A stretch of DNA of 45,604 nucleotides from Anoxybacteroides tepidamans (GTDB taxonomy: Bacteria > Bacillota > Bacilli > Bacillales > Anoxybacillaceae): contig NZ_JACHEP010000024.1 of NCBI RefSeq assembly GCF_014201465.1, forward strand, positions 1 through 45,604, given 5' to 3'. Of the stretch, positions 18,622 through 45,604 are shown piece after piece. Each line of letters begins with the position of its first letter. Position 1 is the stretch's first letter. Below the pieces are notes generated by a model, which saw only the letters and a list, made by a program, of their open reading frames with translations, was not told the origin of the DNA and did not search any database. Made by a program: the position numbers and the translations under genes.

Positions 18622-18627
18622 TAAACA

Positions 18628-29763: not shown

Positions 29764-29788
29764 CTGTTCCAAGTAGTTACTATCATTA

Positions 29789-29816
29789 TTGCTTTATCCC
29801 CCTAGGGGGATATAAT
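29789..29816 (+). promoter_or_regulatory. CsoR-type operator filling a promoter spacer
   Basis: TTGCTT (29789-29794) and TATAAT (29811-29816) are 16 bp apart. The 18-bp perfect palindrome TATCCCCCTAGGGGGATA (29795-29812) fills the entire spacer and overlaps the -10 box. The G/C tract flanked by AT is typical of CsoR/RcnR-family operators, so repression should be direct. Confidence 0.88.
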
Positions 29817-29841
29817 TTTGATGTGAAGGAGGTTTTATTTT

Positions 29842-30141: not shown

Positions 30142-30154
30142 AGGAAGTGCTTTT

Positions 30155-31495
30155 ATGGGGTCTCACATTATGACGGAACAGAATACAACGAATAAACAAA
30201 AAATACGGGTCATTTTAGCCCTTGCTGTTCCTGCAATGATAGAAAATATATTACAAACCGTTGTTGGCTTTGTAGATACGCTTTTTGTATCCAAAATCGG
30301 ACTTGTGGAAGTTACCGCAGTGGGAATAGCAAATGCCATTCTTGCAGTTTATATGGCTATTTTTATGGCTTTAGGAACTGGAACTTCTGCGCTTATTGCC
30401 AGAAGCGTTGGAGCAAAGGATTTTGAAAAAGCAAAATCAATTGCAAAACAAGCGACCTGGATAGCTATTCTTATCGGATTGTTATTTGGTCTTATTTCTT
30501 TATTTTTTGCAGAACCATTACTAAAAATTATGGGGGCAGAGCCGAATGTTTTAGAAGTTGCAGTCACTTACTTTCGAATCGTTGCCGTTCCTTCAGTATT
30601 CATTTCATTAATGTTTGTTTTCGGAAGCATTCTACGAGCGGCGGGAGATACCAAAACTCCAATGAAAGTAAGTGTTTGGATAAATATTGTACATATTGTG
30701 TTTGATTATTTGCTTATTTTTGGGTTTTGGAAATTTGGAGGGTTAGGTATTACAGGAGCAGCTTGGGCAACAGTGATTGCAAGAATTCTTGGAACTATTG
30801 CTCTTTATAGATACATTGTGAAATCCAAACTTCATTTTTCATTATTTGATGGTTTTTCTTTTAACGATAGCCCCCGTTCATTGATAAAATTATCAACTCC
30901 TGCCGCCGCTGAGCGTTTAATAATGCGTTTGGGTCAAGTTCTTTATTTTGGACTTATTGTTCATATTGGAACCGCCACTTATGCAGCTCATACGATTGCT
31001 GGAAACATTGAAATCTTTTCTTATATGCCAGGTTACGGGTTGGCAGTAGCAGCTACTACATTGGTTGGTCAGAACTTAGGAGCAAATCAAAAGAAAGAAG
31101 CTTATTCTTATGGAATGCTTACAACTGGAATAGCCGTTTTATTTATGTCTTTCATTGGGGTTATTTTATATTTCTTTTCCCCTTGGTTTGTAACTTGGTT
31201 TACAACAGATAAAAATGTAATTGATATGGTTACAACTGCTTTACGAATCGATGCCTTTGCCCAACCAGCATTAGCAATCGGTCTTGTATTAGCAGGAGCC
31301 TTACAAGGAGCTGGCGATACGAAAAGCCCAATGTATTCAACTGCTGTAGGTATGTGGGTTATTCGTGTAATTGGAGTATATATTTTGGGAATACAAATGG
31401 GAACGGGTATAGCAGGGGTGTGGTTATCCATATTAATTGATTTGTTTGTTCGTGCTGGATATTTATTATTACGTTTTAAAAAGAAAATGGCTTAA
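30155..31495 (+). CDS. MATE-family multidrug efflux protein
   Basis: A 446-residue 12-helix transporter with the two homologous MATE halves. Each contains the family signature: GTGTSALIARSVGAKDFEKA / LRAAGDTKTPM in the first and ATTLVGQNLGANQKKEA / LQGAGDTKSPM in the second. MATE proteins exchange Na or H for cationic drugs. It lies 13 bp after the CsoR-like gene with AAGGAAGTG before the ATG, so it is expected to respond to the signal sensed by that repressor. No link between MATE proteins and metal ions can be read from the sequence itself. Confidence 0.92.
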   Translation: MGSHIMTEQNTTNKQKIRVILALAVPAMIENILQTVVGFVDTLFVSKIGLVEVTAVGIANAILAVYMAIFMALGTGTSALIARSVGAKDFEKAKSIAKQATWIAILIGLLFGLISLFFAEPLLKIMGAEPNVLEVAVTYFRIVAVPSVFISLMFVFGSILRAAGDTKTPMKVSVWINIVHIVFDYLLIFGFWKFGGLGITGAAWATVIARILGTIALYRYIVKSKLHFSLFDGFSFNDSPRSLIKLSTPAAAERLIMRLGQVLYFGLIVHIGTATYAAHTIAGNIEIFSYMPGYGLAVAATTLVGQNLGANQKKEAYSYGMLTTGIAVLFMSFIGVILYFFSPWFVTWFTTDKNVIDMVTTALRIDAFAQPALAIGLVLAGALQGAGDTKSPMYSTAVGMWVIRVIGVYILGIQMGTGIAGVWLSILIDLFVRAGYLLLRFKKKMA

Positions 31496-31530
31496 TAATA
31501 CGAATTACCTAATGGAAAGGGGATGTTGTA

Positions 31531-32115
31531 ATGAAATTCAGAGAATCAGGAATGCCATCAGAAGATTTATGGAAAACATTCTTTAACCCTTCTGAATGCG
31601 TTCAGAAATTAGGTATTGATAGGAATATCAACACGGTAGTTGACGTTGGATGTGGATATGGAACATTTTTATTTCCAATTGCCAAACTGATTAGCGGAAA
31701 AGTAATTGGCATTGATATTGATCCTAAAATGGTTGAAGTCTGTAACAAAAAAATAAATGAAGAAGCTATTTCAAATATACAAGTAATACAAGGCGATGTT
31801 TTAGATATAGACTTACAATCCGTTTTTTCGGATTACGGTGGTCAGGTTGATTACGTGACTTTATTTAATATTCTTCATTGTGAAGAATCTGTTCAATTAT
31901 TAAGTAAAGTTCATCGTATTCTTGGAAAGAATGGACGCATTGGAGTGATCCATTGGATAAATAAAGATACACCCAGAGGTCCATCTATGGATATTAGACC
32001 AACTCCACAAATGATTATTAATTGGGCTAATGAAACAGGGTTCGTATTAGAAAAACAAGTTGAATTGCCACCATATCATTTTGGTCTAGTCTTTCGTAAA
32101 TTATTTCAGGATTAA
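31531..32115 (+). CDS. Class I SAM-dependent methyltransferase
   Basis: A 194-residue Rossmann-fold methyltransferase. Motif I is VVDVGCGYGTFLFPIA, the acidic post-I residue lies in VIGIDIDPKMVEVC, and motif II/III is VIQGDVLDIDL. The SAM site is complete; the substrate-specifying region is short. It lies 35 bp after the MATE gene with GGAAAGGGGA, and is the last gene of the CsoR-controlled unit. The substrate is unknown. Small methyltransferases of this size include tellurite, thiol and metalloid enzymes, but no diagnostic residue supports one of these. Confidence 0.85.
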   Translation: MKFRESGMPSEDLWKTFFNPSECVQKLGIDRNINTVVDVGCGYGTFLFPIAKLISGKVIGIDIDPKMVEVCNKKINEEAISNIQVIQGDVLDIDLQSVFSDYGGQVDYVTLFNILHCEESVQLLSKVHRILGKNGRIGVIHWINKDTPRGPSMDIRPTPQMIINWANETGFVLEKQVELPPYHFGLVFRKLFQD

Positions 32116-32130
32116 TGCATTATATTTCTA

Positions 32131-32164
32131 GTGACTACATCAATCAAAGGTGTGGTCATTTTTT
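32131..32164 (+). terminator. Terminator of the CsoR-MATE operon
   Basis: GTGACTACATC pairs imperfectly with GGTGTGGTCAT across a short loop, followed by a T run. Confidence 0.75.
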
Positions 32165-32273
32165 ATTGTTTTTTAGAGAAGTTCTTTACTGCTTATATGA
32201 AAATCAAATTGTTTATGAAACATTTGTTTTTCACACCTCGTCTAATTAATAAAATTAAGGAAGGTGATTAGGT

Positions 32274-32747
32274 TTGAAAAAATTTGTTACATATATATCT
32301 GTTGCTTTATTGGTATTAACATTAACAGCTTGTAATAAGTCTAATGGAAAAGAATCAACTCCTGCCACTGATAATCCGAAGAAACCTTATCGTTCTGAGG
32401 AGGCAATAACAAACGGAGATGTGGTCAATCTTCAAGGCAAAATTAGCAACTTAGATAAGTTTGAGCGTTTTGTAGCCAATGTTGAAAGCGGAAAAAAGGA
32501 TAAAATTCGTATCACAATGTACACAGACGAAGGAGATCCAATTTTCCGTAATTTAGATTATAACGGTGAAAAAATCCAGTACACATACGATAATTCACAA
32601 GATGCTTTTGCTGGTTCTGATAAAGGAAAACAAAGTACAACTTGCTCTAAAATAGAAAAGAAGGATATCGATAAAGGAGTGGAGTATCGTTTAAGTGGTT
32701 GTTCTTCGGAGGTTGGAAATACCTTTTATTTTCGAGTTGAGAAATAA
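32274..32747 (+). CDS. DUF4362-like lipoprotein
   Basis: A 157-residue lipoprotein with a signal segment and lipobox LTLTAC. The mature part has the DUF4362 pattern: ITNGDVVNLQGKISNLDKFE, RITMYTDEGDPIFRNLDYNG, then two cysteines (TTCSKI, LSGCSS) that probably form a disulfide. The function of the family is unknown; it is common in Bacillus. The TTG start is supported by AAGGAAGGTGATTAGG. It stands alone with its own terminator. Confidence 0.8.
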   Translation: MKKFVTYISVALLVLTLTACNKSNGKESTPATDNPKKPYRSEEAITNGDVVNLQGKISNLDKFERFVANVESGKKDKIRITMYTDEGDPIFRNLDYNGEKIQYTYDNSQDAFAGSDKGKQSTTCSKIEKKDIDKGVEYRLSGCSSEVGNTFYFRVEK

Positions 32748-32756
32748 ATAACGGAG

Positions 32757-32788
32757 AACCCATACTTTTTGTGTGGGTTATTTTTTCT
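32757..32788 (+). terminator. Terminator after the DUF4362 gene
   Basis: AACCCATAC pairs with GTGTGGGTT around TTTTT, followed by ATTTTTT. Confidence 0.88.
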
Positions 32789-32809
32789 TTTATACCAAAC
32801 TAGAAACGT

Positions 32810-32839
32810 TTGACATCAAAATAATGAAAATAATATAAT
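32810..32839 (+). promoter_or_regulatory. Promoter of the 32894 gene
   Basis: TTGACA (32810-32815), an 18-bp spacer and TATAAT (32834-32839) form a consensus sigma-A promoter, 54 bp before the start codon. Confidence 0.8.
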
Positions 32840-32893
32840 CAAATTAACCAAACGTGTGTTTGGAAATTCATAAGAATAAAGGGGAAATGTCTA

Positions 32894-34270
32894 TTGGAAA
32901 AAATTAAAAATTCGAAATTTCTGACAGAAAAAAAGAAACGTTCTTTATTATGTCACAGCGAATCAATAAAACTTTATCCCACTTTGTATCGATTTATCGT
33001 GGAAAATGAAGATATCACTGAAGAGTTAATGAGAGAAAAACTGTCTGATGAAGACATTAATACGATAGAACACTTAATGCCTGATATTTTTAAGACCTGT
33101 CAAGATGAATGGAAAAGTGATGAAACTAAACCGTATCCACTAGAAATTTTAGATGGCAAACAACGAATCCCCTGCTCCATTTGTAATACACCCAACAAGG
33201 AAATTTATTATATTACCAATAAGATAAGTGGGCGTAAACTTAATGTAGGAAGCACCTGTATCAATTACTTCTTGATAGATTCAATGCTGAACGGAAAGAC
33301 CAAAGGACAAATCAAAAAAGAAGCCATTAGATTACAAAAATTAAGTGTCCTAAACCAGCGATATCCAGGTATCGGAGATATAATAAATGGTTGGACGGAC
33401 GAATTACATAAATTTGATGTGCTAATCCCAAAATCAATGGAAGAGCCGTATGTTCAATTTGGTGAAGAAGTTCGTAAAATGTATAACGATTATTTAGACG
33501 GTAAAGAAATCCCCATTGAAATATTTGCAGAATATCTCCAAAAACAACAGCAATTTCTAAGCGAAATGAAACAATACAATGAAATCCATAAAAACAAAAA
33601 ATTTGTTGTCACCCGTAAAATTATCAATTGGTTGAACAGAACGAATCAAAGTGCGATTCTTGAAAAGTTAAAAGAAACAGGCTATGTCACATATCCTCTA
33701 GCCCCAAACATTCTCGAACAAAATTTTATTCAGTCGTTGTTACCTGAAATAAATGAACACCTCTCGCCTATGAATGCAACCATTATTGGCACAGATGAAG
33801 ATACAAAGTCGTTTATTATCAAGCCATTCGAACATCTAGATATAAAGCTTTCCCTGAAATATGAGAAGTATTTAGACTTATTCGGTTGGAAGCTCTTTGG
33901 AGAGCAACAAAAAGGAGCTTTGAATTTATACAATATATTTTATGTAAGTCGTGTTTACGATAACGAATCCAGACTTATCATTTTGCGTGAACTTAACAAA
34001 AAAGTATCAAGATTCAATATTAGCCTTAGATTTGAAGGTAAATATGATTACTTAGCGTTTAATGAAATTGATATTGTGGATAGAAAATCCGATAAGGTTA
34101 TGGTTGCGAAGTTAAATGAGTTTACAGAGGAATTTAAACATCTTGCTTTTGGACTGGGTAACAAGCCAATCAGTGAAATCATCACATACTTCAATCGTCC
34201 AGAACATAAGAAATACAGCATAAGAGAACTTAAGGATATTCGTTCAAGTTCGAGTAGAGCTGCTATGTAA
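32894..34270 (+). CDS. Unknown 458-residue protein with zinc-type cysteines
   Basis: The family is not recognised. There is no signal peptide or membrane helix. Residues 96-125 contain CSICNTPNKEIYYITNKISG followed by LNVGSTCINYF, a CxxC...C pattern like small zinc modules in phage and element proteins. The rest is helical, with a long charged coil around 205-245. It ends in an Arg/Ser-rich tail (RSSSSRAAM). The start is TTG, with AAGGGGAAA upstream. It has its own strong promoter and is followed 56 bp later by another unknown gene in the same direction. It may belong to the accessory defence or maintenance cargo, but no function is claimed. Confidence 0.7.
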   Translation: MEKIKNSKFLTEKKKRSLLCHSESIKLYPTLYRFIVENEDITEELMREKLSDEDINTIEHLMPDIFKTCQDEWKSDETKPYPLEILDGKQRIPCSICNTPNKEIYYITNKISGRKLNVGSTCINYFLIDSMLNGKTKGQIKKEAIRLQKLSVLNQRYPGIGDIINGWTDELHKFDVLIPKSMEEPYVQFGEEVRKMYNDYLDGKEIPIEIFAEYLQKQQQFLSEMKQYNEIHKNKKFVVTRKIINWLNRTNQSAILEKLKETGYVTYPLAPNILEQNFIQSLLPEINEHLSPMNATIIGTDEDTKSFIIKPFEHLDIKLSLKYEKYLDLFGWKLFGEQQKGALNLYNIFYVSRVYDNESRLIILRELNKKVSRFNISLRFEGKYDYLAFNEIDIVDRKSDKVMVAKLNEFTEEFKHLAFGLGNKPISEIITYFNRPEHKKYSIRELKDIRSSSSRAAM

Positions 34271-34281
34271 GACCATCATTA

Positions 34282-34310
34282 CGACCCTGTACAGGGTCCA
34301 TTTTCATTTA
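34282..34310 (+). terminator. Short hairpin after the 32894 gene
   Basis: GACCCTGTACAGGGTC (34282-34297) is a perfect 16-bp palindrome followed by CATTTTCATTT. It may be a weak terminator or a protein-binding site between the two unknown genes. Confidence 0.45.
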
Positions 34311-34326
34311 GAAAGGATCAATAAAT

Positions 34327-35097
34327 ATGAAAATATTGGACTGCGAAACACAAGAAACAATGTATGCTTCATTAGAACAAATTACAGGCGTTACGAAAGC
34401 TGAACTACTATCTTTCTTTAATCAGTTTGATTTAGAAAAGTATTATGAAGATAACCCTGATTATTGGGAACCAGCGGAGGACTTGTTTCTCAACAAATTA
34501 AGAGCAATGGCAAGAACCAATCTACAATTTGATTGTACAACTTGGTTCCACTTGACAAGAACGTTTAAAGGAAATGACTTTAAAGATGGAATTCTGCCGT
34601 TGGGTAAAAACATTCAATTTATATGGGATTTTCTGTTTCATCTCCAAAAAGGCTTTTTGTCACAAGAAGAATGGCAAAATTTCAAAAAATATGTGGAGAA
34701 ACAATCGTCTGGTCATTATGCGTGGCTTTATCGTATGAAGGTTTCAGATTCATTTCATTGGGGTCCTTATGCGATGTTAATTAAAGACGTTGCTTTTTCC
34801 GCTGAAGAAATCGGTAATCACGATTATTTGGACGCTCCTGAAATTGTGGAAGACATTTGTTTTACGTTTGAAGAAAAATACAATTACGACTTGTTGACCA
34901 AGTTTAAACAATCAACTTATCCGTGTATTATCAAGTTTCAAGTTCAGGAATCTAACATAAGACATTTAGGAATTGTCTTGAATTTTTTGTATCATAAACA
35001 TCAAAATATGGAACTTTCTATTCATTGTAATACCTGCTTTGATGCCAACGGTACAACTATACCGAAGGAAGCCATAATGAAAATTGAATATATTTAA
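34327..35097 (+). CDS. Unknown 256-residue protein
   Basis: Not recognised. It is a soluble, acidic protein rich in aromatic residues (YYEDNPDYWEPAEDLF, DSFHWGPYAMLIKDV) with no signal peptide, membrane segment or obvious catalytic motif. A helical N-terminus (LEQITGVTKAELLSFFNQFD) precedes a mixed alpha/beta body. GAAAGGATCAATAAAT before the ATG is a fair ribosome binding site. It is in the same direction as the 458-residue gene and may share its transcript. Two hairpins follow downstream. Confidence 0.65.
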   Translation: MKILDCETQETMYASLEQITGVTKAELLSFFNQFDLEKYYEDNPDYWEPAEDLFLNKLRAMARTNLQFDCTTWFHLTRTFKGNDFKDGILPLGKNIQFIWDFLFHLQKGFLSQEEWQNFKKYVEKQSSGHYAWLYRMKVSDSFHWGPYAMLIKDVAFSAEEIGNHDYLDAPEIVEDICFTFEEKYNYDLLTKFKQSTYPCIIKFQVQESNIRHLGIVLNFLYHKHQNMELSIHCNTCFDANGTTIPKEAIMKIEYI

Positions 35098-35100
35098 TGA

Positions 35101-35296
35101 AGAAAAAGCTATTGACTAAGGAATTGGGTCAAGGCTTTTTCATAAATCATTGATAGTTTTTAGTACAAAATGAGGAATTTAGCTATTTAGGCTGAACTCT
35201 TTTTTTCTGAAGGCTGTGTTAAAAGTGATGCGTTAGCTTAATAGTGACAATATACACAAAAGCTTGAGGACAAATTTTCCTCGAGCTTTTTTGTGT
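35101..35296 (+). terminator. Two terminator hairpins in a 342-bp spacer
   Basis: AGAAAAAGC...TTGAC pairs with GTCAA...GCTTTTTC at 35101-35141 and ends the 34327 gene. A second hairpin at 35254-35296 joins ACACAAAAGCTTGAGGA with TCCTCGAGCTTTTTTGTGT. The remaining spacer to 35439 holds no gene. A TTGACA at 35360 with an AT-rich stretch downstream (TATAAT at 35392, spacing 26) is only a weak promoter candidate for the TIR gene. Confidence 0.7.
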
Positions 35297-35439
35297 GCTT
35301 GTTTTATCAAAGGTAATACCAACTCATTAGCGTAATTCTTATTAAAAGGACGACTAACTTTGACAAAGTTCAAATGTAGATGTAAGTATATTATAATAAA
35401 TTTGGTAATCGTTTGTAGAGTTGGGGGGGGACACAACCA

Positions 35440-36180
35440 ATGAACGAAATCGTATTTCATTTGAAAAAAGCCATTATGGATATTAAAAATTACAATAAAG
35501 AATGGCGATACTCAGATGTTTTTGAAAGGCTAGTTTCTATACTAAATCAATCCTCAAAAAGGTTAGGGCTTCCAGAGTTTCATTTCGAAGATTTCCATTA
35601 TTCAAATACTCGAAAAACAATCAATGATGTGGGGTATAATTCTTTATTAACACATATTAGTGTTTTAGAAGAGATGTTGCCTTCTATATTTGAAAAACGG
35701 GATAATGATATAAAAGTTCGTTCTGAAAAAGGTAAGAGAGTATTTGTCGTTCACGGTAGAGACAGAACAGCATTATTAGAAGTAGAAGGAATATTAAGAA
35801 GAGTTGGGTTAGAACCCGTTGTATTGAATAGAATGGCGAATAGTGGCTTAACATTAATAGAGAAATTTGAACGGTATTCTGATGTCGAGTATGCGATTGT
35901 ACTTTTAACGCCAGATGACATTGGAGCATTATATGAGAATGTTCCGTTGGAATCCTTGAACTATCAGTTTCGAGCAAGACAAAATGTGATTTTTGAGCTT
36001 GGGTTCTTTTATGGTAAGTTGGGTCGCTCAAATGTATGTTGTTTGTACAAATCGAATGTTGAATTACCTACAGATATCAATGGTATAGCTTATATTCCTT
36101 ATCAGTATTCAGTTGAAGAAGTTGAATTTGCGTTATTGAGAGAACTAAAAGAGGCAAAACTCGAATTTCAAGCTCTTTAA
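35440..36180 (+). CDS. TIR-like nucleotide-binding domain protein
   Basis: A 246-residue protein with a helical N-terminal region (1-100) and a C-terminal TIR-like domain of the predicted nucleotide-binding family (PF10137 type). It includes KRVFVVHGRDRTALLEVEGI, PVVLNRMANSGLTLIEKFE, YAIVLLTPDD and RARQNVIFELGFFYGKLGR, whose ELGFF glutamate is the conserved acidic residue. Such domains degrade NAD or bind nucleotides in antiphage systems such as CBASS Cap12. No cyclase or partner gene is adjacent. The 3' end has a near-identical relic at 45361. It is upstream of, and co-directional with, the Argonaute gene, but a terminator lies between them. Confidence 0.8.
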   Translation: MNEIVFHLKKAIMDIKNYNKEWRYSDVFERLVSILNQSSKRLGLPEFHFEDFHYSNTRKTINDVGYNSLLTHISVLEEMLPSIFEKRDNDIKVRSEKGKRVFVVHGRDRTALLEVEGILRRVGLEPVVLNRMANSGLTLIEKFERYSDVEYAIVLLTPDDIGALYENVPLESLNYQFRARQNVIFELGFFYGKLGRSNVCCLYKSNVELPTDINGIAYIPYQYSVEEVEFALLRELKEAKLEFQAL

Positions 36181-36181
36181 A

Positions 36182-36226
36182 ACAAGTCTTTGACGGATCT
36201 TACGATTCTTCAAAGGCTTTTGTTTT
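36182..36226 (+). terminator. Terminator after the TIR gene
   Basis: ACAAGTCTTTGA and TCAAAGGCTTTTGT are largely complementary around a 16-base loop and are followed by TTT. Confidence 0.65.
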
Positions 36227-36351
36227 AGCAACCGAAATCTTAGATTAATTAACATCAATAATAAATAATAGCAGGAATAATAAGATAATTTGTCGAAATA
36301 AATCATAATCCCATTTTTAAAAAAATTGATTTAGGTTTAAAGGTGGAACAA

Positions 36352-37003
36352 ATGAACAATATACCAATCCGCTTAAACTTTTTCGCTCTAAAAAATCAGA
36401 ATATTTCATTCAGAATATATAGACAAGACTTTAATGGTCAAAAAAAACAAGATGGTTACTATAGAACTAAATTGCCGATAAATGATTCGTCAGACACTTA
36501 CGCTGAATACTGGGTTACTACTCAACCAAAAGACGGTTTTGAACGTGTATATTGTTTAGGCAGTTCTAATCCGAAACTGACCGTTAGAATCATGTGGGAA
36601 AGTTTTTTGGATAGAGTACAAAAGTCACTAAGTAGTGATGAATACATACTTTATGGAAATGGCTTTTCACGCAAAGTGGCTGTTATTATCGGAAGACATC
36701 GTGAAGGTAATGAAGTCATTCAAATTGAGCCATATTACTTGAAAGCGGAAAAGAAATTTGGTTTTCTAGTTGATTTTGCTTTTAAAAAAGCTAAAGATGT
36801 TCCTTACTCCATAAGAGTGCAGCAATTGAGTTTAAGCTTAAATAAATATGGTAAGAGCAACGCCGATTATTACAGTGACAAGCTCGACAAAATTAAATTC
36901 TTTATGCAGAAATTTAAGCAGCGGCTTTTCCCGTTTTCTCTAGACAATGAGGATTATGACATTGAAAATGAACTATATTTAATGCGGTCTTATCCATTAA
37001 AAA
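36352..37003 (+). pseudogene. Prokaryotic Argonaute, N-terminal part, split by insertion
   Basis: The first 217 codons of a long-type pAgo. They encode an N/L1-like lobe (NIPIRLNFFALKNQNISFRI, then GFLVDFAFKKAKDVPYSIRV and QQLSLSLNKYGKSNADYY). ATG 36352 follows AAAGGTGG; GTG 36343 is in frame but overlaps the site. The reading continues past YPLK into the inserted ISL3 unit and ends at 37164, adding about 53 foreign residues. The native frame resumes at 41120. Joining 36352-37003 to 41120-42387 gives one uninterrupted frame of 639 codons plus stop. On its own the fragment lacks MID and PIWI and cannot bind guide and target. Confidence 0.8.
36996..37003 (+). repeat. Target-site duplication, left copy
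   Basis: ATTAAAAA stands immediately before the GG of the left inverted repeat. The same 8 bp follow the right inverted repeat at 41112-41119. Eight-base duplications are usual for ISL3-family elements. Confidence 0.85.
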
Positions 37004-37034
37004 GGTTCATCACCAAAAGATGTACTTGCACCTG

Positions 37035-38194
37035 TCATGAAAGTATGTTAGCTGTTTCCAGCCGAACCCGCAGTGCAAAACGCTGGATATTTCGGTATCC
37101 GTATCCCCGACGTTTCATCAGCTTGATCTTGTTATTCGTTCCCTCCATCTTCCCATTCGAATAATGGGATAAAATGCACGATATCATTTCGTCTGTTCGC
37201 TTGACGAGTGATTTTGCGATGGCACGAACAACGGAACAAGGACAAAACAAATACCGATGAATCCAAGCCTTCAAGCGTCGTTTCGCCTGTTACTCATCTT
37301 TGCTTTTGAACACATAGCGAACATGTCGGAGCGATTGGTAAACAGACTTTAAGTAATCGCTTTCCTTACACCATTCTCGTATGATTTGACGTTCTTCCTC
37401 CGTCAATTTCTCTGGGCATTGGCTCAATAAACGGCAAACGTAACGAACATTTCCGTGTTTCTTGCCTCCTTTGCCCAAATATTTGCGACAACGTTCTAAC
37501 GCATCGGTAAACAGCTGAATGACATGGATGTCGCCTCTGGGCAAACCCGTTGAATCGCTTTTTTCATCGCTGGTGCCAAATCACTCACGACATACTGAAC
37601 GGAACGAGACACATGAGCCAATGCACGCCCAATGGCTTCCTCGTTCTTTCCTGCTTCCATGGCATACACTTCCCCCGTTTCGGCATCCATGATCGCCACT
37701 CCGTAGTCATGCCCTTTTCGAAACGCAAACTCATCGACACAAACCGCCTTTGGTTGGACGTCATTCGATAGGAAGGAAGGGGCATGGGTATAAAACCATC
37801 GTTCAACGGTCGTGTAAGGAAGCTTGAGCATACGAGCCACCGCCTGAATGGATGTTCCGATGCAAGATTGCGCGACCCATCGCTGAAAAGCATCCGTCGC
37901 CACACTTCGAGGAGAGATGGCTGGATACGACGTGCTGAACGTCACGCCACACGTGCTACAACGTCTGCGCTCGACAGGAAGTTCGATCCAAAAAATTCCG
38001 ATTCGCTGAGCATAGCCATGCATCCATTGCTTCTTTTTGTCTGTCATTTTGATCGTGCGCTTCAAGCAGACAGGACATAACGGGCATTGTTCGGGTAGAG
38101 AAAGTTCGAAAATCCAACGTTCCCCTTCTTTTCGCACCTTTTGAATCAAAACATCTGGTCAATCGATGAGTTCTTTGATAAACTGAGAGTACAT
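37035..38194 (-). pseudogene. ISL3-family transposase, inactivated
   Basis: The start is MYSQFIKELID at 38194, after which codon 12 is TGA (38159-38161). The frame reopens with zinc-finger pairs (CPLCPVC, CSTC), a helix-turn-helix (AVARMLKLPYTTVERW) and the DDE region (VCVDEFAFRKGHDYGVAIMD, YVVSDLAPAMKKAI). A frameshift near 37500-37540 and an in-frame TAA at 37290-37292 interrupt the rest. The final part has the ISL3 signature HYSNGKMEGTNNKIKLMKRR with the catalytic glutamate. With three lesions it cannot make active enzyme, so movement needs a relative in trans. Confidence 0.88.
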
Positions 38195-38312
38195 GCGAAT
38201 TTCCCTCCATGGTTCGGTTTGGTCACCTTTACCATACAGGAAAATTCGCATTTTTTGTACCCTCTATGCACACCTACCTTAAATGATCAAGTACAACTTG
38301 TGGTGAAGAGCC
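38180..38312. repeat. IS end, first copy of 133-bp direct repeat
   Basis: The upstream end of the IS, including the transposase start codon, leader and terminal inverted repeat, is repeated at 40979-41111 with no difference noticed. It also contains a GCGAATTT...AAATTCGC inverted pair around the transposase leader. Confidence 0.85.
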
Positions 38313-40450
38313 TATTCTTTAACTTTTAGCAATCGCATGCTGTTTAATGTTACGATTAATGTTGCTCCCATATCCGCAAATATCGCTAACCATAACGTTA
38401 ACCAACCAGGCACAATTAACAGTAATGACAATGCCTTAATCCCTAAAGAGAAAGTAATGTTTTGCTTAATAATCGCTAAAGCTTTGCGGCTCAATTTAAT
38501 CGTATATGGCAATTTGCTTAAATCATCAGACATTAAGACAATATCGGCTGTTTCTAGGGCTGTATCGGTTCCAGCACCACCCATTGCCACACCAACGGTT
38601 GAAGCTGCAAGAGCTGGTGCATCGTTCACACCATCTCCAACCATCGCAACACTTCGATACTTGTCGCGAAGCTCTTTGATGAAATTCAGTTTATCTTCTG
38701 GAAGTAAATCGGCTTTAATATCGGAAACACCGACTTGTTTTCCGATGGCTTCGGCTGTTCTTTGGTTATCTCCCGTCAGCATCACCGTTTTTTCAATACC
38801 GACTTGATGAAGTTTTCGAATAACCTCTTTGGATGATTCTCTTATTTCGTCTGCCACGGCAATTAACGCCAGAATTTCTTTTTCCGTCCCTAATACCATG
38901 ACCGTTTTCCCTTGTATTTGAAGGGTTGTAATTTGTTCTTTTATTTCTGATTGGATGCCATTTGGAAGAAGTTCTTCAAAAAGACCTGGACTTCCGACAT
39001 AATACATTGCGTTATTTACTTTGGCTTTGACCCCTTTACCTGTAATGGATTGGAATTCTTCAACCGATACATCATTAAAATTCAATCCATCTTCTTCTGC
39101 TTTTCTTATAATGGCGGAAGCAAGTGGATGTTGTGAGCCTTTTTCAATGGCTGCTGTAATGGTCATTAGTTCATTTTCATTGCCATTATAAGTGACTACA
39201 TCGGTGACGGAAGGAATACCTTTTGTTAATGTTCCTGTTTTATCAAAAGCAATCACTTTTAAGTTTCCTGCTTCCTCTAAATAAATACCACCTTTAATTA
39301 ACACACCGTTTTTCGCTGCATTTCCAATGGCAGTTACAATCGAAACAGGCGTGGAAATAACCAACGCACACGGACAACCAACCACTAATACAGCTAGACC
39401 TCGATAAATCCATTCGCTCCAATCAGCACCCATAAATAATGGAGGAATAACGGCTAGTAAAAGAGCAAAAATGATAATGGCTGGTGTATAGTATTTGGCA
39501 AAACGATCTACAAACGCTTGAGAAGGTGCTCGTTCTGCTTGAGCTTCTTCCACTAAATGGATGATTTTCGAAAGAGTTGTATCTTCCACTCGTTTTGTCA
39601 CTTTTACTTCCAATAACCCTTCTTCATTCAATGTTCCTGCAAAGACTTCATCACCGACTGTTTTGGTTACTGGAACACTTTCTCCCGTAATGGCAGCCTG
39701 ATTTAGCGTAGATGTACCCTTGATGACGATTCCATCCATCGCTAATTTCTGACCAGGCTTTACGATCATAATATCTCCGACTTGAATATCGTCAACAGGG
39801 ACCATCATTTCTTCATTTCCGCGACGAATTAATGCTTCTTTTGGAGCAATATCCATCAACGATTCAATGGATTGACGAGCTTTATCCATGGAATAACGCT
39901 CTAAGGCTTCGCTAATGGCGAATAGAATAACAACCGTTGCACCTTCTCCCCATTCACCAATCGCTGCAGCTCCTAAAATCGCCACTGTCATCAGCGTATT
40001 CATATCAAAATTCAATCGAACTAGGTTTTTGAAACCTTTTATAAATAACGAATATCCACCGATTAAAATTGCTGCAGCATATCCAATTGTCGCAAAGATA
40101 TGCTCTTCTCCGTATTGCTTCCCTAAAAACCAACTGATCACAAGCAAAACGGCGGAAATATACACTTTAATGTTCTCTTTTTGCTTCCAAAAAGGTTCAC
40201 GCTTGACTGATTTTTCTTTATCTTCCCGAACCTTTAAGTTTTCAAAAGCTCCTGCTTTTTCTAATTCTTCGATGGTTGTTGTACCCCAAACGGTAATTTT
40301 AGATGCTCCAAAGTTTACTTTAGCATCTTGAACACCTGGCAATGATTTTACATTATTTTCAAACTTTGCCGCACAGTTTGCACAAGTAAATCCTTGAACA
40401 CGGTAGGTTTTCGCTTCTGATTTAGATAATTTTGCTTGTTGTTCAGACAC
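38312..40450 (-). CDS. cadA: Cadmium/zinc-exporting P1B ATPase CadA
   Basis: A 712-residue pump with a single HMA domain ([18 protein letters not shown]), the CPC helix ([17 protein letters not shown]), [19 protein letters not shown] and [11 protein letters not shown]. Length and layout match pI258-type CadA of staphylococci and bacilli, which exports Cd(II), Zn(II) and Pb(II). The ATG overlaps the cadC stop by 8 bp. It is distinct from the two-HMA pump at 19090, so the element carries two cadmium-type pumps under different sensors. The stop codon touches the IS end. Confidence 0.95.
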
Positions 40451-40811
40451 GGACTTTCACCTCTTTCTCATGTACTAACGCAATCATGATTAACTGCTTA
40501 ATATGGTCATCATCCAGCGAATAAAATGCTAGCTTTCCTTCTTTTCGATACTTTACAATCCCTTGTTTATAAAGAGTCCGTAAATGATGGGAAGTGGTTG
40601 CAACAGAAGCCCCAATGATATTGGCAATATCACATACACATAACTCTTTATCTTGGCAAAGTGAATAGACAATTTTTGCCCTATTTTCATCTGCCAGTGC
40701 TTTAAACAACAGGACAACACTGGATATATCTTCTTTTTGCAATTCCCCTTGTATTCGATTGACTTTTTCTTCGTCATAACAATAAATTTCACATGTATCT
40801 TTCTTACTCAT
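40443..40811 (-). CDS. cadC: CadC, cadmium/lead/zinc-responsive repressor
   Basis: A 122-residue ArsR/SmtB protein very like S. aureus pI258 CadC: the N-terminal tail has Cys7 and Cys11 ([11 protein letters not shown]) and the DNA-binding domain has ELCVCDI. Together these four cysteines form the alpha-3N Cd/Pb site. The recognition helix is [19 protein letters not shown] 40811 follows GAAAGGGGG. It represses the cadC-cadA pair through the operators upstream and is released by cadmium or lead. Confidence 0.95.
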
Positions 40812-40828
40812 TCATTATCCCCCTTTCA

Positions 40829-40894
40829 TATTCAAATTTCCGTTTGAATATATTATACCCCATTTCTTTTATTATTCAAATATTTATTTGAATT
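40829..40894 (-). promoter_or_regulatory. Two CadC operators upstream of cadC
   Basis: TATTCAAA-N6-TTTGAATA (40829-40850) and TATTCAAA-N6-TTTGAATT (40873-40894) share the same spacing and match the known CadC palindrome type. Their centres are 44 bp apart. Known cad promoters are usually described with one such site, so the second copy may tighten repression. Confidence 0.8.
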
Positions 40895-40978
40895 AAAAAC
40901 AAAAAACATCCATGAGTAAGCTTTTACTCGCCACCCAAGCATGAAAATAACCGCTCATGGATTCATTATTTTCACAGA
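40895..40978. other. Spacer with hairpins between cadC promoter and solo IS end
   Basis: ATCCATGAG and CTCATGGAT enclose an inner GAGTAAGC-TTTTACTC hairpin. This could be a terminator carried with the cad genes. No gene is present. Confidence 0.4.
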
Positions 40979-41111
40979 AAACTGAGAGTACATGCGAATT
41001 TCCCTCCATGGTTCGGTTTGGTCACCTTTACCATACAGGAAAATTCGCATTTTTTGTACCCTCTATGCACACCTACCTTAAATGATCAAGTACAACTTGT
41101 GGTGAAGAGCC
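40979..41111. repeat. Solo ISL3 end, second copy of 133-bp direct repeat
   Basis: This copy of 38180-38312 contains only the transposase start region and the terminal repeat. It supplies the right boundary that allowed IS plus cadCA to move together. It ends exactly at the second ATTAAAAA duplication. Confidence 0.85.
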
Positions 41112-41119
41112 ATTAAAAA
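41112..41119 (+). repeat. Target-site duplication, right copy
   Basis: ATTAAAAA directly follows the GAAGAGCC end of the inserted unit; its last A is the first base of the ATG that opens the right Argonaute fragment. Confidence 0.85.
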
Positions 41120-42387
41120 TGAAAACATACATTTTTAGTAACGGAAAAGAAAGCAATTCTCAAGTTCAGGGTTTAAAGACTTACGGACCGTTAGCAAACC
41201 TTGATAAAGAACCATTGTTTGTGTTTATGTTTGAATCTCAAGATAGGAATGAAGCTCTTGAATTGTATAGTTCGCTATTAGGCAAAACTTACACGAACAT
41301 TTTTGCTGGAATGGAATCAGTCTATAAAATCAAGTTAGCAAAAGAAAATGTCAAGCATATTATTATTCCCTCGCTTACTAAAGAAGGCTTACAAGTAGTG
41401 GAACAAGAGCTACAAACCATTGTAGAGAGCCATCAAGATAAAAAAGTAATTGGAATATTTGTTATGAACGAAAAAGTTCCTTCCTCAATTACTGGATTTT
41501 CACCTTATCATTATGTCAAATATATTTTCACCGAAAAACGAATACCTTTACAGACTGTTCGATGTGAAAGAATCGCAGCTAGAGATGGATTAAAATGGTC
41601 TGTTGGCAATATTGGACTACAAATTTTTGCTAAACTTGGTGGGATTCCGTGGAAAGTAAAGCCGAGTAATGATAAATGTATTATTTTTGGATTAGGCTGT
41701 GCGCACAAAAAGGATGAGCTTGGGAACATAAATAAATATTTTGCTTATTCTGTTTGTATGGACTCCAGTGGCATTTATCGCAAAATTAACGTCTTAGGTG
41801 ATGCAAAGGAAAGAACAGATTATATTCTACAATTAAGAGAAAACATTAAAAGCGTTATTTCGGAAAATCTTGATGGAAGTATTGAGAAATGCGTTATCCA
41901 TTTACCGTTTAAAATTAAGAACGATGAAATTAGGTATATAAAAAGTAGTGTGCAAGAAATAGCCCATTTGTATAGCGATATTGAATTCCAATTCATTAAA
42001 ATCAACACGGATAATAAGTTTTTTGGATACGCAGAGAACAACTCTAAGGTTCCTTACGAAAGTTCATACATTCAACTATCTTCAAATGAGTTCTTGGTCT
42101 GGTTTGAAGGTTTACAGTACGGTAAAGAGTTGGTTAAAAAGAAAGTTGGAAATCCAGTGCATATAGAATTTATGCAGATAGATGAACTGGATCCAGAGAA
42201 GAAGAGAAGGTATTTGCAGGACATCATTAACTTGTCTGGGGCGAATTGGAGGGGATTTAACGCTAAGTTATCTCCAATTTCGATTTATTATCCGAACATC
42301 ATTGCCAACTTTATTTCTGAATTTAGAGAGTTTCAGCCAGAAGGCGATGTTGATTTGACGAATTTTTATATACCTTGGTTCTTGTGA
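41119..42387 (+). pseudogene. Prokaryotic Argonaute, MID-PIWI part (3' fragment of split gene)
   Basis: These 422 codons carry a MID domain (VIGIFVMNEKV, then HYVKYIFTEKRIPLQTVRCE with candidate 5'-phosphate-binding Lys and Gln) and NIGLQIFAKLGGIPWKVK before the PIWI domain. PIWI begins CIIFGLGCAHKKDE, where an active Argonaute has Asp in G-I-D-V; VIHLPFKI also lacks the later catalytic Asp. The domain is therefore predicted to bind but not cut. The fragment looks like a short pAgo but is the rest of the gene begun at 36352. The ATG at 41119 has GGTGAAGAG from the IS end upstream, so some translation is possible. Confidence 0.8.
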
Positions 42388-42401
42388 GTAGGAGATAGAA
42401 T

Positions 42402-43460
42402 ATGAGCATAAAAGAAAACGATGTGGTTTTTTTATTGGGAGCTGGTTGCAGTTTTGATGCTGGCATTCCAACAGTAAATAAAATGGTTGAAGATATAGAA
42501 AACTCTCTTTTGAAAAACAAAGATGAGTGGAAAGGACTGCAGGATTTATATTTCTATATCAAAAGCGCTATCTTGTATGCTGACGGTATCTTTGGAAAGT
42601 TTCATAACACTGTGGGTATCGAGAAAATAATGAATGTGCTATCGGAACTTGAGAAAAAGGAAAAGAATTTGGTATATCCCTTTATTGCAAACTGGAACAA
42701 TAGACTCATTGATTTAGCAGGTGCAAACTTTGAAGGTATACGGAAGTTAAAAAAGTTAATCACGACTCAATTGATTAACTGGATTAAGTTGGAGGATTAT
42801 CGCGCGGCGGATTATTACCGCCATTTTTATGAATTTCAAAAAGAAGTGGGCAAGTCCATTCGAGTTTTCACATTGAATTATGACCTTTGTTTCGAATATG
42901 CCAAGCCTCACGGTTCTGAACTTGAATTAGGTTTTGACGAGAACAGAACTTGGAATAGCCTCCGTTTTGACAGTAACAATCAAGATATAGAGGCTGGCAT
43001 TTATCTGTATAAGTTACACGGGTCCATTACTTGGAAAAGAGATAAAGACCAAGGACATATATTGAAATCTTCCGTTCATCCAGAAGAAGAGCCTGACTTG
43101 ATATTTGGAACGGATACCAAGCTTCAATCTATTGACCCATATCTCTTTTATGTTTATGAATTTCGGAAATACACCTTGGAAAGTAAAATTATCATTGTTA
43201 TTGGTTACAGTTTCAGCGATGAATATATTAATAATTTGATTAAGCAATCGCTTGAACACAAGCCTGAACGTGTTCTCATTGTTGTAGATATAAGACAAGA
43301 TGAAGAAAAGGTAAAGAGCGAGATTCAAGCAGCTCTGAAGTTGAAAAGTAGTTCCCAAATAGTGATTTATTCTAAATCGGCAAAGGAATTCTTAGAAAAC
43401 GACCTTACGGTTACGGAAATAAGTAAATACTTGCCGAAGGTCGAGGACGCTTTTTTATAG
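42402..43460 (+). CDS. SIR2-domain effector of the Argonaute system
   Basis: A 352-residue SIR2-like protein with NAD-site motifs: FLLGAGCSFDAGIPTVNKM (GAGxSxxxGIP), FTLNYDLCFEYA (TxNYD), YKLHGSITW (LHGS) and VIGYSFSDEYINN. It has no recognisable APAZ extension, unlike the SIR2-APAZ subunits that pair with short pAgos, which are also much longer. It starts 15 bp after the Argonaute stop with GTAGGAGA. In long-B pAgo-associated SIR2 (bAgaS/BAS) systems such proteins deplete NAD when the Argonaute finds invader DNA. Here the partner is broken, so the gene may be an orphan. Confidence 0.85.
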   Translation: MSIKENDVVFLLGAGCSFDAGIPTVNKMVEDIENSLLKNKDEWKGLQDLYFYIKSAILYADGIFGKFHNTVGIEKIMNVLSELEKKEKNLVYPFIANWNNRLIDLAGANFEGIRKLKKLITTQLINWIKLEDYRAADYYRHFYEFQKEVGKSIRVFTLNYDLCFEYAKPHGSELELGFDENRTWNSLRFDSNNQDIEAGIYLYKLHGSITWKRDKDQGHILKSSVHPEEEPDLIFGTDTKLQSIDPYLFYVYEFRKYTLESKIIIVIGYSFSDEYINNLIKQSLEHKPERVLIVVDIRQDEEKVKSEIQAALKLKSSSQIVIYSKSAKEFLENDLTVTEISKYLPKVEDAFL

Positions 43461-43682
43461 CAAAAATAGAAGGTATGTAAACAAATAATTTTGTATGAAA
43501 AAATGTACTTATTGATGAAATCCTAGAACACAAAAAAGACCAGATTCAACTCGGAGCTTTTTTGCTTTAGAAAAGAGCAAAGATTACATCAAGACACAAG
43601 AATGGATATACAACAGGTTGTGTTATAACTGTACAGCTTTATTAAAATACAGAAATCTCAATTTTCAAGGAGAAACTAATTG
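43461..43682 (+). other. Spacer after the SIR2 gene
   Basis: There is a possible imperfect terminator at about 43535-43567 (AAAGACC...GGAGCTTTTTTGC). An AT-rich promoter-like stretch lies before AAGGAGA at 43668. No gene is seen. Confidence 0.35.
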
Positions 43683-44204
43683 ATGGCGCACTTTATTACA
43701 GCAAACGGAAAAGTTGAAATGGAACCTTATAGTGATGATTTTGGAATGACAATTGAATTTATTTTAATTAAAGTTCAACGAATTCGTGCGGGATTCAATA
43801 TAATCCAGCAGATGATGTTTAATAGCAGAACAAAATCAATTGAGGATATTTTAGGGTATTTACATAAAGTAACTTTCGAAATAAAGGAAAATGTAGTATA
43901 TGAAAAGCTAATAAATATCTTCGAAGGGAAGGGGCAATCAGTTCAATTTTCAGATTGGACTTATATTCCCCAAAACATTGATACACCAATTTATGAATTT
44001 GAAAGAATTTTGCAGTTTTCAACCCAAAACATTGAGGAACTAAGAAAAATAACCAATCTATTTGAGGAACTTGGAGAGAAAAGGAAACAATCCGTTAACG
44101 ACCCTTTGATGTTTGCTTTAAACGATAATCTGTTTATAGAAAGATACCCAGATTCGCATTTAATCTTTTTGTGGTCAGAGTATGATGATTTTTCAGATGA
44201 GTAA
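43683..44204 (+). CDS. Unknown 173-residue protein
   Basis: Not recognised. A soluble acidic protein beginning MAHFITANGKVEMEPYSDDF, with a helical middle (FILIKVQRIRAGFNIIQQMM) and an acidic end (SEYDDFSDE). There is no signal peptide, membrane segment or catalytic motif. ATG 43683 follows AAGGAGAAACTAATTG; the TTG at 43680 is in frame. It lies between the SIR2 and PemK-like genes in the same direction but is separated from the SIR2 gene by 222 bp, so it is not clearly part of the Argonaute operon. Confidence 0.65.
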   Translation: MAHFITANGKVEMEPYSDDFGMTIEFILIKVQRIRAGFNIIQQMMFNSRTKSIEDILGYLHKVTFEIKENVVYEKLINIFEGKGQSVQFSDWTYIPQNIDTPIYEFERILQFSTQNIEELRKITNLFEELGEKRKQSVNDPLMFALNDNLFIERYPDSHLIFLWSEYDDFSDE

Positions 44205-44275
44205 AAAGCAGGAATATAGTTTTTTTTGTCGAAATCTGTTATTCTTCACACAATTATTAAAAGGAGGATAACAGA

Positions 44276-45022
44276 TTGTTTGATTTTAAGGGGTTATTGA
44301 AGATTATCCAAGACAAAACAAGAAGAGATGAAATTAAAACATCGCTTGCCCACACAGAACCCAAAATAAATAGTGAGTTACCCAAGAATTTAAAGGATAC
44401 TGAGGATTTAGTAAAGGGGTTAACCATCGAGCAAGCCATTAAATTTATTCTCTGGAATGGTTTATGGAATCAATATGGAATTTTTGGCGATAAACGTGAA
44501 GAAGCAAGAATTTTTAAGGAGAAGGATAAAGAGGGTAATCTTGTTGAAAAGGATTATTACTCAAAACGATATGGCAGAGGCAAATTATTAAGCATTGATT
44601 TTGGAGTAAGCAATATAGGACGAGAATTATCATATGTTCATACTGGAATTGTAATTGATGACTATCCAAGTATCGTAGTTGTTGTACCGATGACCTCAAA
44701 GAAGGATTCTGGGCTTAATAACATTTCCGATGAAATTAAGAAATGCATTATCCCTGTTTTGAAAAAGGATTACCCAGAAATTAAAGAAGATTCTTATATT
44801 TTGACTCACCAGATCCGAGCCGTGTCAAAAAATCGGATAACCAAAATTGTTGGTTCAATTGCACGAACCAAACTGATGGAAGAACTTGAAGAAATGCTCT
44901 TTAGTCGTCAAACTCCATATATCAAAAAATTGAAAAACGAACAAATTGAAGCTTTAGAAAAGCGGATTAGTGATTTGGAAAAGCAGCTACAGTCTTTAAC
45001 AAAGCCACAATTGACAAATTAA
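44276..45022 (+). CDS. PemK/MazF-like protein with extra N- and C-terminal regions
   Basis: A 248-residue protein. The middle (about 95-210) resembles the PemK/MazF fold: YGRGKLLSIDFGVSNIGREL, HTGIVIDDYPSIVVVVPMTS, then YILTHQIRAVSKNRITKIVG (the Q-x-R-x-V-x-K-x-RI block seen in MazF). The first 90 residues are helical and unlike typical MazF, and residues 215-245 form a coiled coil (EQIEALEKRISDLEKQLQSL). MazF toxins cut RNA; no antitoxin gene is adjacent. The TTG start is supported by AAGGAGG. It could be a solitary PemK-like RNA-processing protein rather than a classic toxin. Confidence 0.75.
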   Translation: MFDFKGLLKIIQDKTRRDEIKTSLAHTEPKINSELPKNLKDTEDLVKGLTIEQAIKFILWNGLWNQYGIFGDKREEARIFKEKDKEGNLVEKDYYSKRYGRGKLLSIDFGVSNIGRELSYVHTGIVIDDYPSIVVVVPMTSKKDSGLNNISDEIKKCIIPVLKKDYPEIKEDSYILTHQIRAVSKNRITKIVGSIARTKLMEELEEMLFSRQTPYIKKLKNEQIEALEKRISDLEKQLQSLTKPQLTN

Positions 45023-45039
45023 TGATGTTACAGTATCAT
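45011..45039 (+). promoter_or_regulatory. Promoter inside the end of the PemK-like gene
   Basis: TTGACA (45011-45016), 17 bp and TATCAT (45034-45039) make a good promoter. It overlaps the last codons of the PemK-like gene and points to a transcript starting near 45046 with no open frame. Confidence 0.6.
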
Positions 45040-45045
45040 TAATAT

Positions 45046-45176
45046 TGAACATACTTTACTTATATAGTCCTTATCGTCTGTGACGATATGAGACCAAATG
45101 GAGCTTATACATGTATATCGCCTCCATTGGAGCGGAAGGCGAACCCGTGACCCCTGAAATACGTTCAGGGGTTTTA
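45046..45176 (+). ncRNA. Candidate small structured RNA, about 130 nt
   Basis: Between the promoter at 45011-45039 and the terminator at 45150-45176 the sequence folds into TTATCGTC-TGT-GACGATA and CCAAATGGAG...CTCCATTGG stems. It then has an unpaired GGAAGGCGAACCCGTG stretch before the terminator hairpin ACCCCTGAA/TTCAGGGGT. No coding frame with a ribosome binding site is present on this strand. On the other strand GGAGGCGATATAC precedes a 13-codon ATG frame, leaving room for an antisense pair. The family is unknown. Confidence 0.45.
45150..45176 (+). terminator. Terminator hairpin
   Basis: ACCCCTGAA and TTCAGGGGT enclose a short loop and are followed by TTTTACATTTTTATTTT. Confidence 0.85.
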
Positions 45177-45360
45177 CATTTTTATTTTCCTGTTAGAAAC
45201 TTATCCATATTGATTTCTGGGATTGTTGTTTTATTAAGCTTAATTCCATTACTTTGTTAAACATATTCCTTACAAAACCGACTAAACCAACTTTATCAGA
45301 TAATTTCAGCTTCATTTAAATCCATATTTATTAATGAAGACCCCACTATCAGCTCGCAAA
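45177..45360. other. Spacer, nothing recognised
   Basis: AT-rich sequence with stops in all frames and no ribosome binding site. Confidence 0.5.
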
Positions 45361-45410
45361 TTAAGAGAACTAAAAGAGGCAAAACTCGAATTTCAGGCTT
45401 TTTAAAACAA
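45361..45410 (+). pseudogene. 3' relic of a TIR-like gene
   Basis: Fifty bases match the end of the TIR gene (36136-36185) with three differences. In frame they encode LRELKEAKLEFQAF and a stop, against LRELKEAKLEFQAL in the intact gene. Sequence before and after is unrelated, so only the gene end survives. Confidence 0.8.
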
Positions 45411-45431
45411 TACTTACATTCAAAATGTCAT

Positions 45432-45464
45432 AAAAATGAATCCATCAAAGTTGGATTCATTTTT
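45432..45464 (+). terminator. Terminator after the TIR relic
   Basis: AAAAATGAATCCA pairs with TGGATTCATTTTT around a short loop. It was probably the terminator of the lost TIR-like gene. Confidence 0.85.
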
Positions 45465-45604
45465 ACAATCCTTGAATTTTATCCAAACCCTTGAAGTCTT
45501 AAATAAATAACTGTAGTTGAGCAAATTTACTAACATAAATTTACATCCAAACAAAAAAGGAGACATGAACCCGACTCCTTGGTTAAAATAGATGTGCTAA
45601 CCAA
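45465..45604. other. Window end, no gene seen
   Basis: AT-rich sequence with an AAGGAG...CTCCTT inverted pair near 45559-45580 that may be a terminator. The expected 3' half of host radA has not appeared by the last base. Confidence 0.5.

Follow-up and report, generated by a model that had tools for sequence, protein, structure and literature searches.

In a 45,604-nucleotide stretch of the genome of Anoxybacteroides tepidamans (contig NZ_JACHEP010000024.1 of assembly GCF_014201465.1; hereafter, the window), the gene for a prokaryotic Argonaute (pAgo) of the long-B type is cut in two by a transposable unit that carries cadmium-resistance genes, and an intact gene for a SIR2-like effector follows directly downstream. 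We hold that the two make up a disrupted member of the BPAS family, in which a long-B pAgo is paired with a SIR2 protein. The pair lies on a larger mobile island, and the same island with the same interruption is present in a second carrier, which we take to be the metagenome-assembled genome HOT.CON.20 of an Anoxybacillus species (G003). Most likely the guided immunity has been lost and the SIR2 gene is silent or its product restrained; we give this reading roughly two chances in three (0.68).

Both pieces of the Argonaute gene are on the forward strand. The N-terminal lobe (N-L1-L2) spans 36352..37003, and its open reading frame (ORF), which begins at ATG 36352, reads on into an insertion sequence (IS) and ends at 37164. 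The MID-PIWI half spans 41119..42387 and encodes 422 amino acids. The two ORFs match consecutive stretches of one PADLOC profile (PDLC02381, pAgo_II, 617 positions): the left ORF matches positions 3-208 (E = 7.7e-64) and the right ORF matches positions 210-617 (E = 5.3e-176). When each piece was aligned on its own to five continuous relatives, the break fell between adjacent columns, with no gap and no overlap. If the flanks are joined through a single copy of the 8-bp sequence ATTAAAAA, they form one reading frame of 639 amino acids, counted from ATG 36352. This start has a Shine-Dalgarno pairing of -8.0 kcal/mol, versus -3.7 for the alternative start, GTG 36343. A first-pass annotation of the window, which worked from the letters alone, had proposed just such a rejoined frame of 639 codons, and had allowed that the two parts might turn out to be unrelated. 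Both belong to one family, and the proposal is confirmed.

The left lobe is recognized from the PADLOC profile and from the five relatives. Among Pfam domains, the PIWI domain in the right half (E = 4.6e-14) was the sole pAgo domain recognized. A comparison of the left lobe to solved structures gave no credible relative (two hits with E > 1 when searched alone, and none when searched as a profile), so the N-terminal subunit of the split Argonaute of Archaeoglobus fulgidus, AfAgo-N, cannot be matched to it by sequence. At 217 amino acids, the lobe is shorter than the corresponding parts of EcAgo and RsAgo, which reach this point after about 293 and 326 residues, so we infer a reduced or missing PAZ domain. 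Structure models of each half, predicted from the single sequence, had a mean pLDDT of about 40 and were set aside. Ryazansky et al. (2018) describe 31 long pAgos that lack PAZ, scattered across the tree, in the available part of their report (PMC6299218).

The halves are separated by a unit of 4108 bp (37004..41111). Copies of ATTAAAAA at 36996..37003 and at 41112..41119 are flush with the imperfect terminal inverted repeats of the unit, and the left copy is identical in G003. At the given base composition, two 8-bp sequences would agree by chance with a probability of about 4e-5. We take 8-bp target duplications to be typical of ISL3 elements, and here the duplication is accompanied by inverted repeats and by an ISL3 transposase gene. 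That gene is in an ISL3-family IS of 1309 bp on the reverse strand (37004..38312; Pfam DDE_Tnp_ISL3 and HTH_Tnp_ISL3). Next, also on the reverse strand, are cadA, which encodes a P-type ATPase of the Cd/Zn/Pb type (38312..40450; NCBIfam TIGR01525 and TIGR01512, both above cut-off), and a gene for a cadC-type metalloregulator of the ArsR/SmtB family (40443..40811; NCBIfam NF033788 and Pfam HTH_5). The unit closes with a second IS right end of 133 bp (40979..41111), a direct repeat that is 100% identical to 38180-38312. The stop codon of cadA borrows one base from the end of the IS, at 38312. So the claim that a cadmium-resistance transposon splits the pAgo gene was correct. The transposase frame is broken in the window: it is frameshifted by the loss or absence of 16 bp that are present in 4 of 7 aligned copies. 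In G003, the frame is open and encodes 379 residues.

Most of this unit is also found, at 97.6-98.5% identity, in five further genomes from the family (G023, G013, G004, G015, and G025), where the match runs from unit position 1 or 27 to positions 3877-3978 of 4108. Within the stretches that we fetched, each of the five has one IS right end only; their left flanks are unlike the window's and unlike one another, and none of the five genomes has a pAgo_II match. The end of the IS adjoins cadA identically in all six of the oriented copies besides the window's (those five and G003). The cad genes could conceivably have entered by homologous recombination into an IS that was already inside the pAgo gene, which would be expected to leave the same duplication. 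Two further features of the unit are worth recording. Between the window and G003, all 11 substitutions of one kilobase, as well as the 16-bp difference, fall within the IS (37200-37724), and the adjacent kilobases are identical; differences confined to the IS in this way suggest that IS copies have exchanged sequence. Also, the 83-bp stretch at 40899-40981, which by eye is partly inverted, occurs elsewhere in the family at 99-100% identity and is in tandem in G019.

We assigned the MID-PIWI half to the long-B group by ranking its similarity to solved structures. With the single sequence as the query, the E values were 2e-21 for AfAgo, 1e-13 for EcAgo, 9e-6 for RsAgo, 2e-4 for AaAgo, and 7e-4 for structure 8in8. 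In a profile search, AfAgo, EcAgo, and RsAgo again came first, followed by eukaryotic Piwi proteins (7e-8), 8in8 (2e-7), and AaAgo (1e-5). We take AaAgo to be a long-A pAgo and 8in8 to be a short one. AfAgo and RsAgo are classed as long-B (PMC10954474), and the pAgo of the BPAN system goes by the name EcAgo (PMC10620215), as far as the available parts of those reports go. The PIWI domain is of the inactive type, as the first-pass annotation had it. The motif FGLGCA, which begins at residue 190 of the right half, aligned with IIIGTGA of AfAgo, and the GIG of the family aligned with VGMG of RsAgo. The first aspartate of the catalytic tetrad would presumably be at this position, and the call of inactivity rests on that first position of the tetrad.

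The SIR2-like effector is encoded at 42402..43460 on the forward strand. The gene is intact (352 amino acids; Pfam SIR2_2), and its product, which is of the bAgaS type, is a predicted NADase. It does lie just past the pAgo gene, as claimed, but its ORF begins 14 nt after the pAgo stop codon rather than 15 bp. The PADLOC model "Aga_SIR2 Class II" matches residues 1-350 of the 352 (E = 1.3e-141), which leaves no space for an APAZ domain, and the earlier statement that the protein lacks APAZ stands. N159 and H206 are conserved in the window's protein and in all five of the relatives that we aligned. Judging by the motif, N159 is probably equivalent to N155 of GbAgaS, and we assume that the conserved histidine has a catalytic role in the NADase. 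Overall, the ranking of the MID-PIWI half, the match to Aga_SIR2, and the gene order support a long-B pAgo with a SIR2 partner of the bAgaS/BPAS type. The window has a long-B MID-PIWI half, an inactive PIWI domain, a SIR2_2 protein without APAZ encoded directly downstream, and the conserved asparagine and histidine; what it does not have is a continuous full-length pAgo, as the gene is interrupted at 37003/41112 in both carriers. We did consider whether the right half might be a short pAgo (SPARSA), and we ruled this out, given the N lobe upstream and a SIR2 protein with no extension of the size of APAZ. Still, the right half could be miscalled as one, as the first-pass annotation warned: it matches a pAgo model of just 460 positions with E = 7e-62.

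Where do uninterrupted relatives occur? A tblastn search of plasmids with the right half matched 10 records; we examined the first four (H1-H4) and left out H5-H10, which were 20-25% identical. Three Hymenobacter plasmids and one Leptolyngbya plasmid encode a continuous pAgo of 632-643 amino acids, with a SIR2-type gene 3-14 nt downstream. A genome of the same phylum as the window, G554, encodes a continuous pAgo of 649 amino acids and a SIR2 protein of 350 amino acids, separated by 18 nt (or by 3 nt, if an earlier GTG is the start). Identity to these five relatives is 42-45% for the right half, 25-40% for the left half, and 41-50% for the SIR2 protein. The Argonaute gene is thus continuous in all five relatives, as the first-pass annotation would require of relatives with an empty site. 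None of the five is a true empty-site copy of this island, and no copy lacking the insertion turned up in our scans of the genus, the family, the order, the phylum, the class of G554, or named genome contigs. The SIR2 protein on the Leptolyngbya plasmid (L023 5266-6180, 304 amino acids) loses similarity near its C-terminal end, so the effector may be the damaged partner there.

Within the genus, 2 of 7 genomes, its own among them, match the right half. In the family, 2 of 41 genomes have strong matches to pAgo_II and nine others have weak ones (E from 4.6e-8 to 5.4e-5), and 1 of 14 controls has a match. At E up to 1e-20, the right half matches 1 of 397 genomes drawn from the order (only its own), 3 of 398 drawn from the phylum (its own, G554, and G506, where the match has E = 2.6e-32 and is in a frame of 771 amino acids at locus L027), and 1 of 63 in the class of G554, with none of the 14 controls matching in any of these three scans. 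The scan of named genome contigs found a single locus, the second carrier. No relatives of the right half were found among viral contigs or phage records.

The comparison with this second carrier bears on how the broken gene may have travelled. Part of the window (6403..45510, with an approximate left border and a right end beyond the window) belongs to an island with metal-resistance and defense cargo that has integrated into radA. The 5' piece of the chromosomal radA is at 5617-6393, and its 3' piece is on contigs G003:C281 and G000:C21. Of the 7 genomes of the genus, 5 have radA in one piece; in both carriers it is radA that holds the island, and the block at 6403-12404 is present in the same 2 of 7. 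One contig of G003 matches 25021-45510 at 99.717% identity (20.5 kb), with the identical insertion and duplication, and the match to G003 also extends from about 6405 to 17223 (the comparison leaves out 17224-25020). Because a separate assembly has the identical insertion, an assembly artefact is unlikely. Across the island, the two carriers differ by 0-1.1% per kilobase within the window and by 0-1.2% per 250 bp in the tail beyond it. Their chromosomes are far less similar: the left flank differs by 14-19% in five 1-kb windows (1001-6000), and the right flank, in the 3' part of radA, differs by 17-21%. Given this contrast, the island, with its pAgo gene already cut, seems to have passed between two species or to have reached both from a common source. 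The pAgo system and the metal-resistance unit thus share one larger mobile element, as had been suspected, and it is a radA-integrated island of two Anoxybacillus species. As far as the sequences go, the carriers have no changes in either piece of the pAgo gene and one silent change in the SIR2 gene, so a test for selection is impossible.

What would the interruption do to the cell? In the BPAS system studied by Song et al. (2023), GbBPAS, the SIR2 protein GbAgaS on its own reduces viability by about 10^4-fold, and GbAgo abolishes this toxicity; the two proteins co-purify, and together they drain NAD+ when triggered by a plasmid (these points are from the available part of PMC10620215). By analogy, in an intact version of the window's operon, guides would detect the DNA of an invader and release the SIR2 enzyme, which would drain NAD+, leaving the cell dead or stalled. 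With 4.1 kb of ISL3-cad sequence between the N-L1-L2 and MID-PIWI lobes, guided immunity has most likely been lost, and either the intact SIR2 gene is poorly expressed or the MID-PIWI half still holds its product in check. Metal-resistance genes and other cargo may be the reason why the island is kept. The first-pass annotation stated flatly that a metal-resistance unit had knocked out a defense system. The interruption is clear; the loss of function is likely rather than certain, since splits of the AfAgo type do work (PMC10954474, in the part available).

That the loss of a pAgo to an IS can happen is already known: in Thermus thermophilus HB27, insertion of ISTth7 put the Argonaute gene out of action and made the strain more transformable, according to the accessible text of that report (PMC6352166). 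This suggests, by analogy, that loss of the system could ease the uptake of DNA in Anoxybacillus. In the open-licence literature, as judged from titles and the openings of abstracts, we found no report of a long-B pAgo split by a transposon or of this island. The identical insertion in a second species, on the same radA island, is new here.

Several observations weigh against a simple loss of function. The ORFs for the N lobe, the MID-PIWI half, and SIR2 are all still open in both carriers. The carriers have diverged too little for decay to be told apart from constraint. A dead pAgo next to a live SIR2 gene is not obviously stable, because of the toxicity of GbAgaS when it is alone (PMC10620215). 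And the break is near the point of division of the long-B pAgos that are naturally split and functional (PMC10954474).

This last point raises the possibility that, through the insertion, a single-chain pAgo became two proteins that reassemble, as AfAgo-N and AfAgo do, into a working Argonaute in control of SIR2. The left protein would be N-L1-L2 with a short tail encoded by the IS, and the right ORF, starting from the ATG at the junction, would give MID-PIWI. We consider this unlikely, but it has some attractions. Manakova et al. (2024) describe AfAgo-N (N-L1-L2) and AfAgo (MID-PIWI) as a working heterodimer; in the portion of their report available, splits of long-B pAgos are inferred to have arisen several times, and Sir2-like proteins are one of two main kinds of downstream partner for both split and single-chain long-B pAgos (PMC10954474). 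All of the ORFs that would be needed are open in both carriers. In the window, the break falls between positions 28 and 29 of profile A3. Residue 30 of AfAgo aligns with position 44 of that profile and residue 5 of 8in8 aligns with position 19; extrapolated without gaps, this places the cut about 14 residues into either protein. Also, the right ORF starts with ATG exactly at the junction (its first base is the final A of the right copy of ATTAAAAA), although ATG makes up 10 of the 640 codons of the frame. We noticed both coincidences afterwards, and they have limited weight: by our estimate, a break would fall this close (no more than 15 residues to either side) about 5% of the time by chance.

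Other observations weigh against a working split. The halves are separated by 4.1 kb that includes genes on the opposite strand, the left protein carries 53 foreign residues, and the right half has no convincing promoter. A promoter scan of the region listed 23 sites versus 26.2 expected in shuffled sequences, so we claim no promoter; it listed no promoter-like site in the second IS right end, and one weak site on the forward strand (40825-40854), which overlaps the promoter-like site of cadC, is within chance. The pairing that resembles a ribosome-binding site for the right ORF (-7.4 kcal/mol) is badly spaced, as it ends at -14 from ATG 41119, versus -7 for the pAgo ATG and -8 for SIR2, and 14% of the 875 ATGs in the window reach a pairing of -6 kcal/mol. 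Quite unlikely, in our view, is the more specific idea of a working two-piece pAgo-SIR2 system in which the right half and the toxin are transcribed from within the cadmium-resistance unit or are under its control. If the insertion did create a working pair, then a transposable unit has been caught in the act of creating a split Argonaute near the natural border of the lobes, and this could be a route by which split long-B Argonautes start.

Another improbable alternative is that the MID-PIWI half acts as an antitoxin-like brake on SIR2 but no longer provides guided immunity. This would explain how the cell tolerates SIR2, and it fits with GbBPAS, in which the Ago protein abolishes the toxicity of lone SIR2 and co-purifies with it (PMC10620215). 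The right half and the SIR2 gene are adjacent and open in both carriers. On the other hand, the expression signals just described are weak for this arrangement as well. Finally, the first-pass annotation described the gene as restorable by precise excision, so that the insertion would be a reversible switch that restores the gene in a fraction of the population; the perfect 8-bp duplication, the single frame across the junction, and the uninterrupted transposase frame in G003 are compatible with this, but we find it very unlikely and the claim unsupported, because none of the searched genomes and contigs has the empty-site allele, the transposase is frameshifted in the window, and we found no other full-length copy of the ISL3 IS in the assembly of its own genome (copies could have been lost in assembly), while recombination between the 133-bp repeats would leave the 1.3-kb IS in the gene. 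We favor a disrupted operon whose guided immunity is probably gone.

Upstream of the left half is a gene for a TIR-domain protein (35440..36180, forward strand; CAP12/PCTIR, Pfam PF10137 with E = 2.5e-36 and PADLOC PDC-S35 with E = 3.2e-90), which we consider a candidate defense gene. A TIR-domain gene also adjoins the pAgo-SIR2 pair on a plasmid of Hymenobacter qilianensis (L024 6764-7492). The 3' end of the window's TIR gene forms one copy of a 56-bp direct repeat (36135-36190 and 45360-45415, 91% identical) that flanks the whole pAgo-SIR2 module and two genes beyond it. It could mark an attachment site or be left over from the gain of a cassette. Within the bracketed module and downstream of SIR2, 44276-45022 encodes a PemK/MazF-like protein (Pfam, E = 8e-9).

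At its other end, the island starts with four genes that we take to be its integration genes (6572-13106), followed directly by its own copy of radA (13112-14512), an order that resembles that of GInt islands (PMC5385486, as far as its available text describes them). The first of the four has a weak, sub-cut-off match to an integrase (E = 3.3e-4), the second matches HTH_17, and the others have no match. Compared with radA of the five genus members in which that gene is uninterrupted, the island's copy shows 41-43% identity, so the island may replace the radA that it breaks. The last bases of the window (45511-45604) are unmatched at that point in G003, and the sequence that does continue the match is on a different contig (C21); probably, an extra repeated element sits at this point in the window's own genome.

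The locus is an unambiguous example from nature in which a metal-resistance unit has broken a defense system on the same mobile island, and the broken form is present in two species. It raises the question of how a cell tolerates an intact gene for a SIR2 effector after its Argonaute has been cut. There is also a lesson for annotation, which is that a call of "short pAgo + SIR2" can be a broken long pAgo.

How does this locus compare with known systems? Its island has, as in GInt islands, four genes at one end with the cargo right after the fourth, but it is in radA and carries a copy of radA, and the likeness is in gene order (PMC5385486, available text). Like the pAgo gene of T. thermophilus HB27, the window's gene was broken by an IS; that pAgo is of another kind, the accessible text mentions no SIR2 partner, and the insertion was of a plain IS (PMC6352166), whereas here an IS-cad unit cuts between the lobes on an island common to two species. 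AfAgo-N and AfAgo share with the window separate ORFs for N-L1-L2 and MID-PIWI, a PAZ domain that is (in the window, presumably) reduced or absent, nearly the same point of division, and a MID-PIWI protein of similar length (427 amino acids, versus 422 in the window); the ORFs of A. fulgidus overlap in one operon, while the window's halves are 4.1 kb apart with a transposable unit between them. The pairs on the Hymenobacter and Leptolyngbya plasmids and in G554 are of the same families, with MID-PIWI halves at the identity given above, the same gene order, and similarly close spacing, but their pAgos are continuous (632-649 amino acids). The functional model is GbBPAS: in both, an inactive-type long-B pAgo is encoded directly 5' of a SIR2_2 gene without APAZ. 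The window's version is known here from its sequence, its host is Anoxybacillus, and its pAgo is cut by an IS-cad unit.

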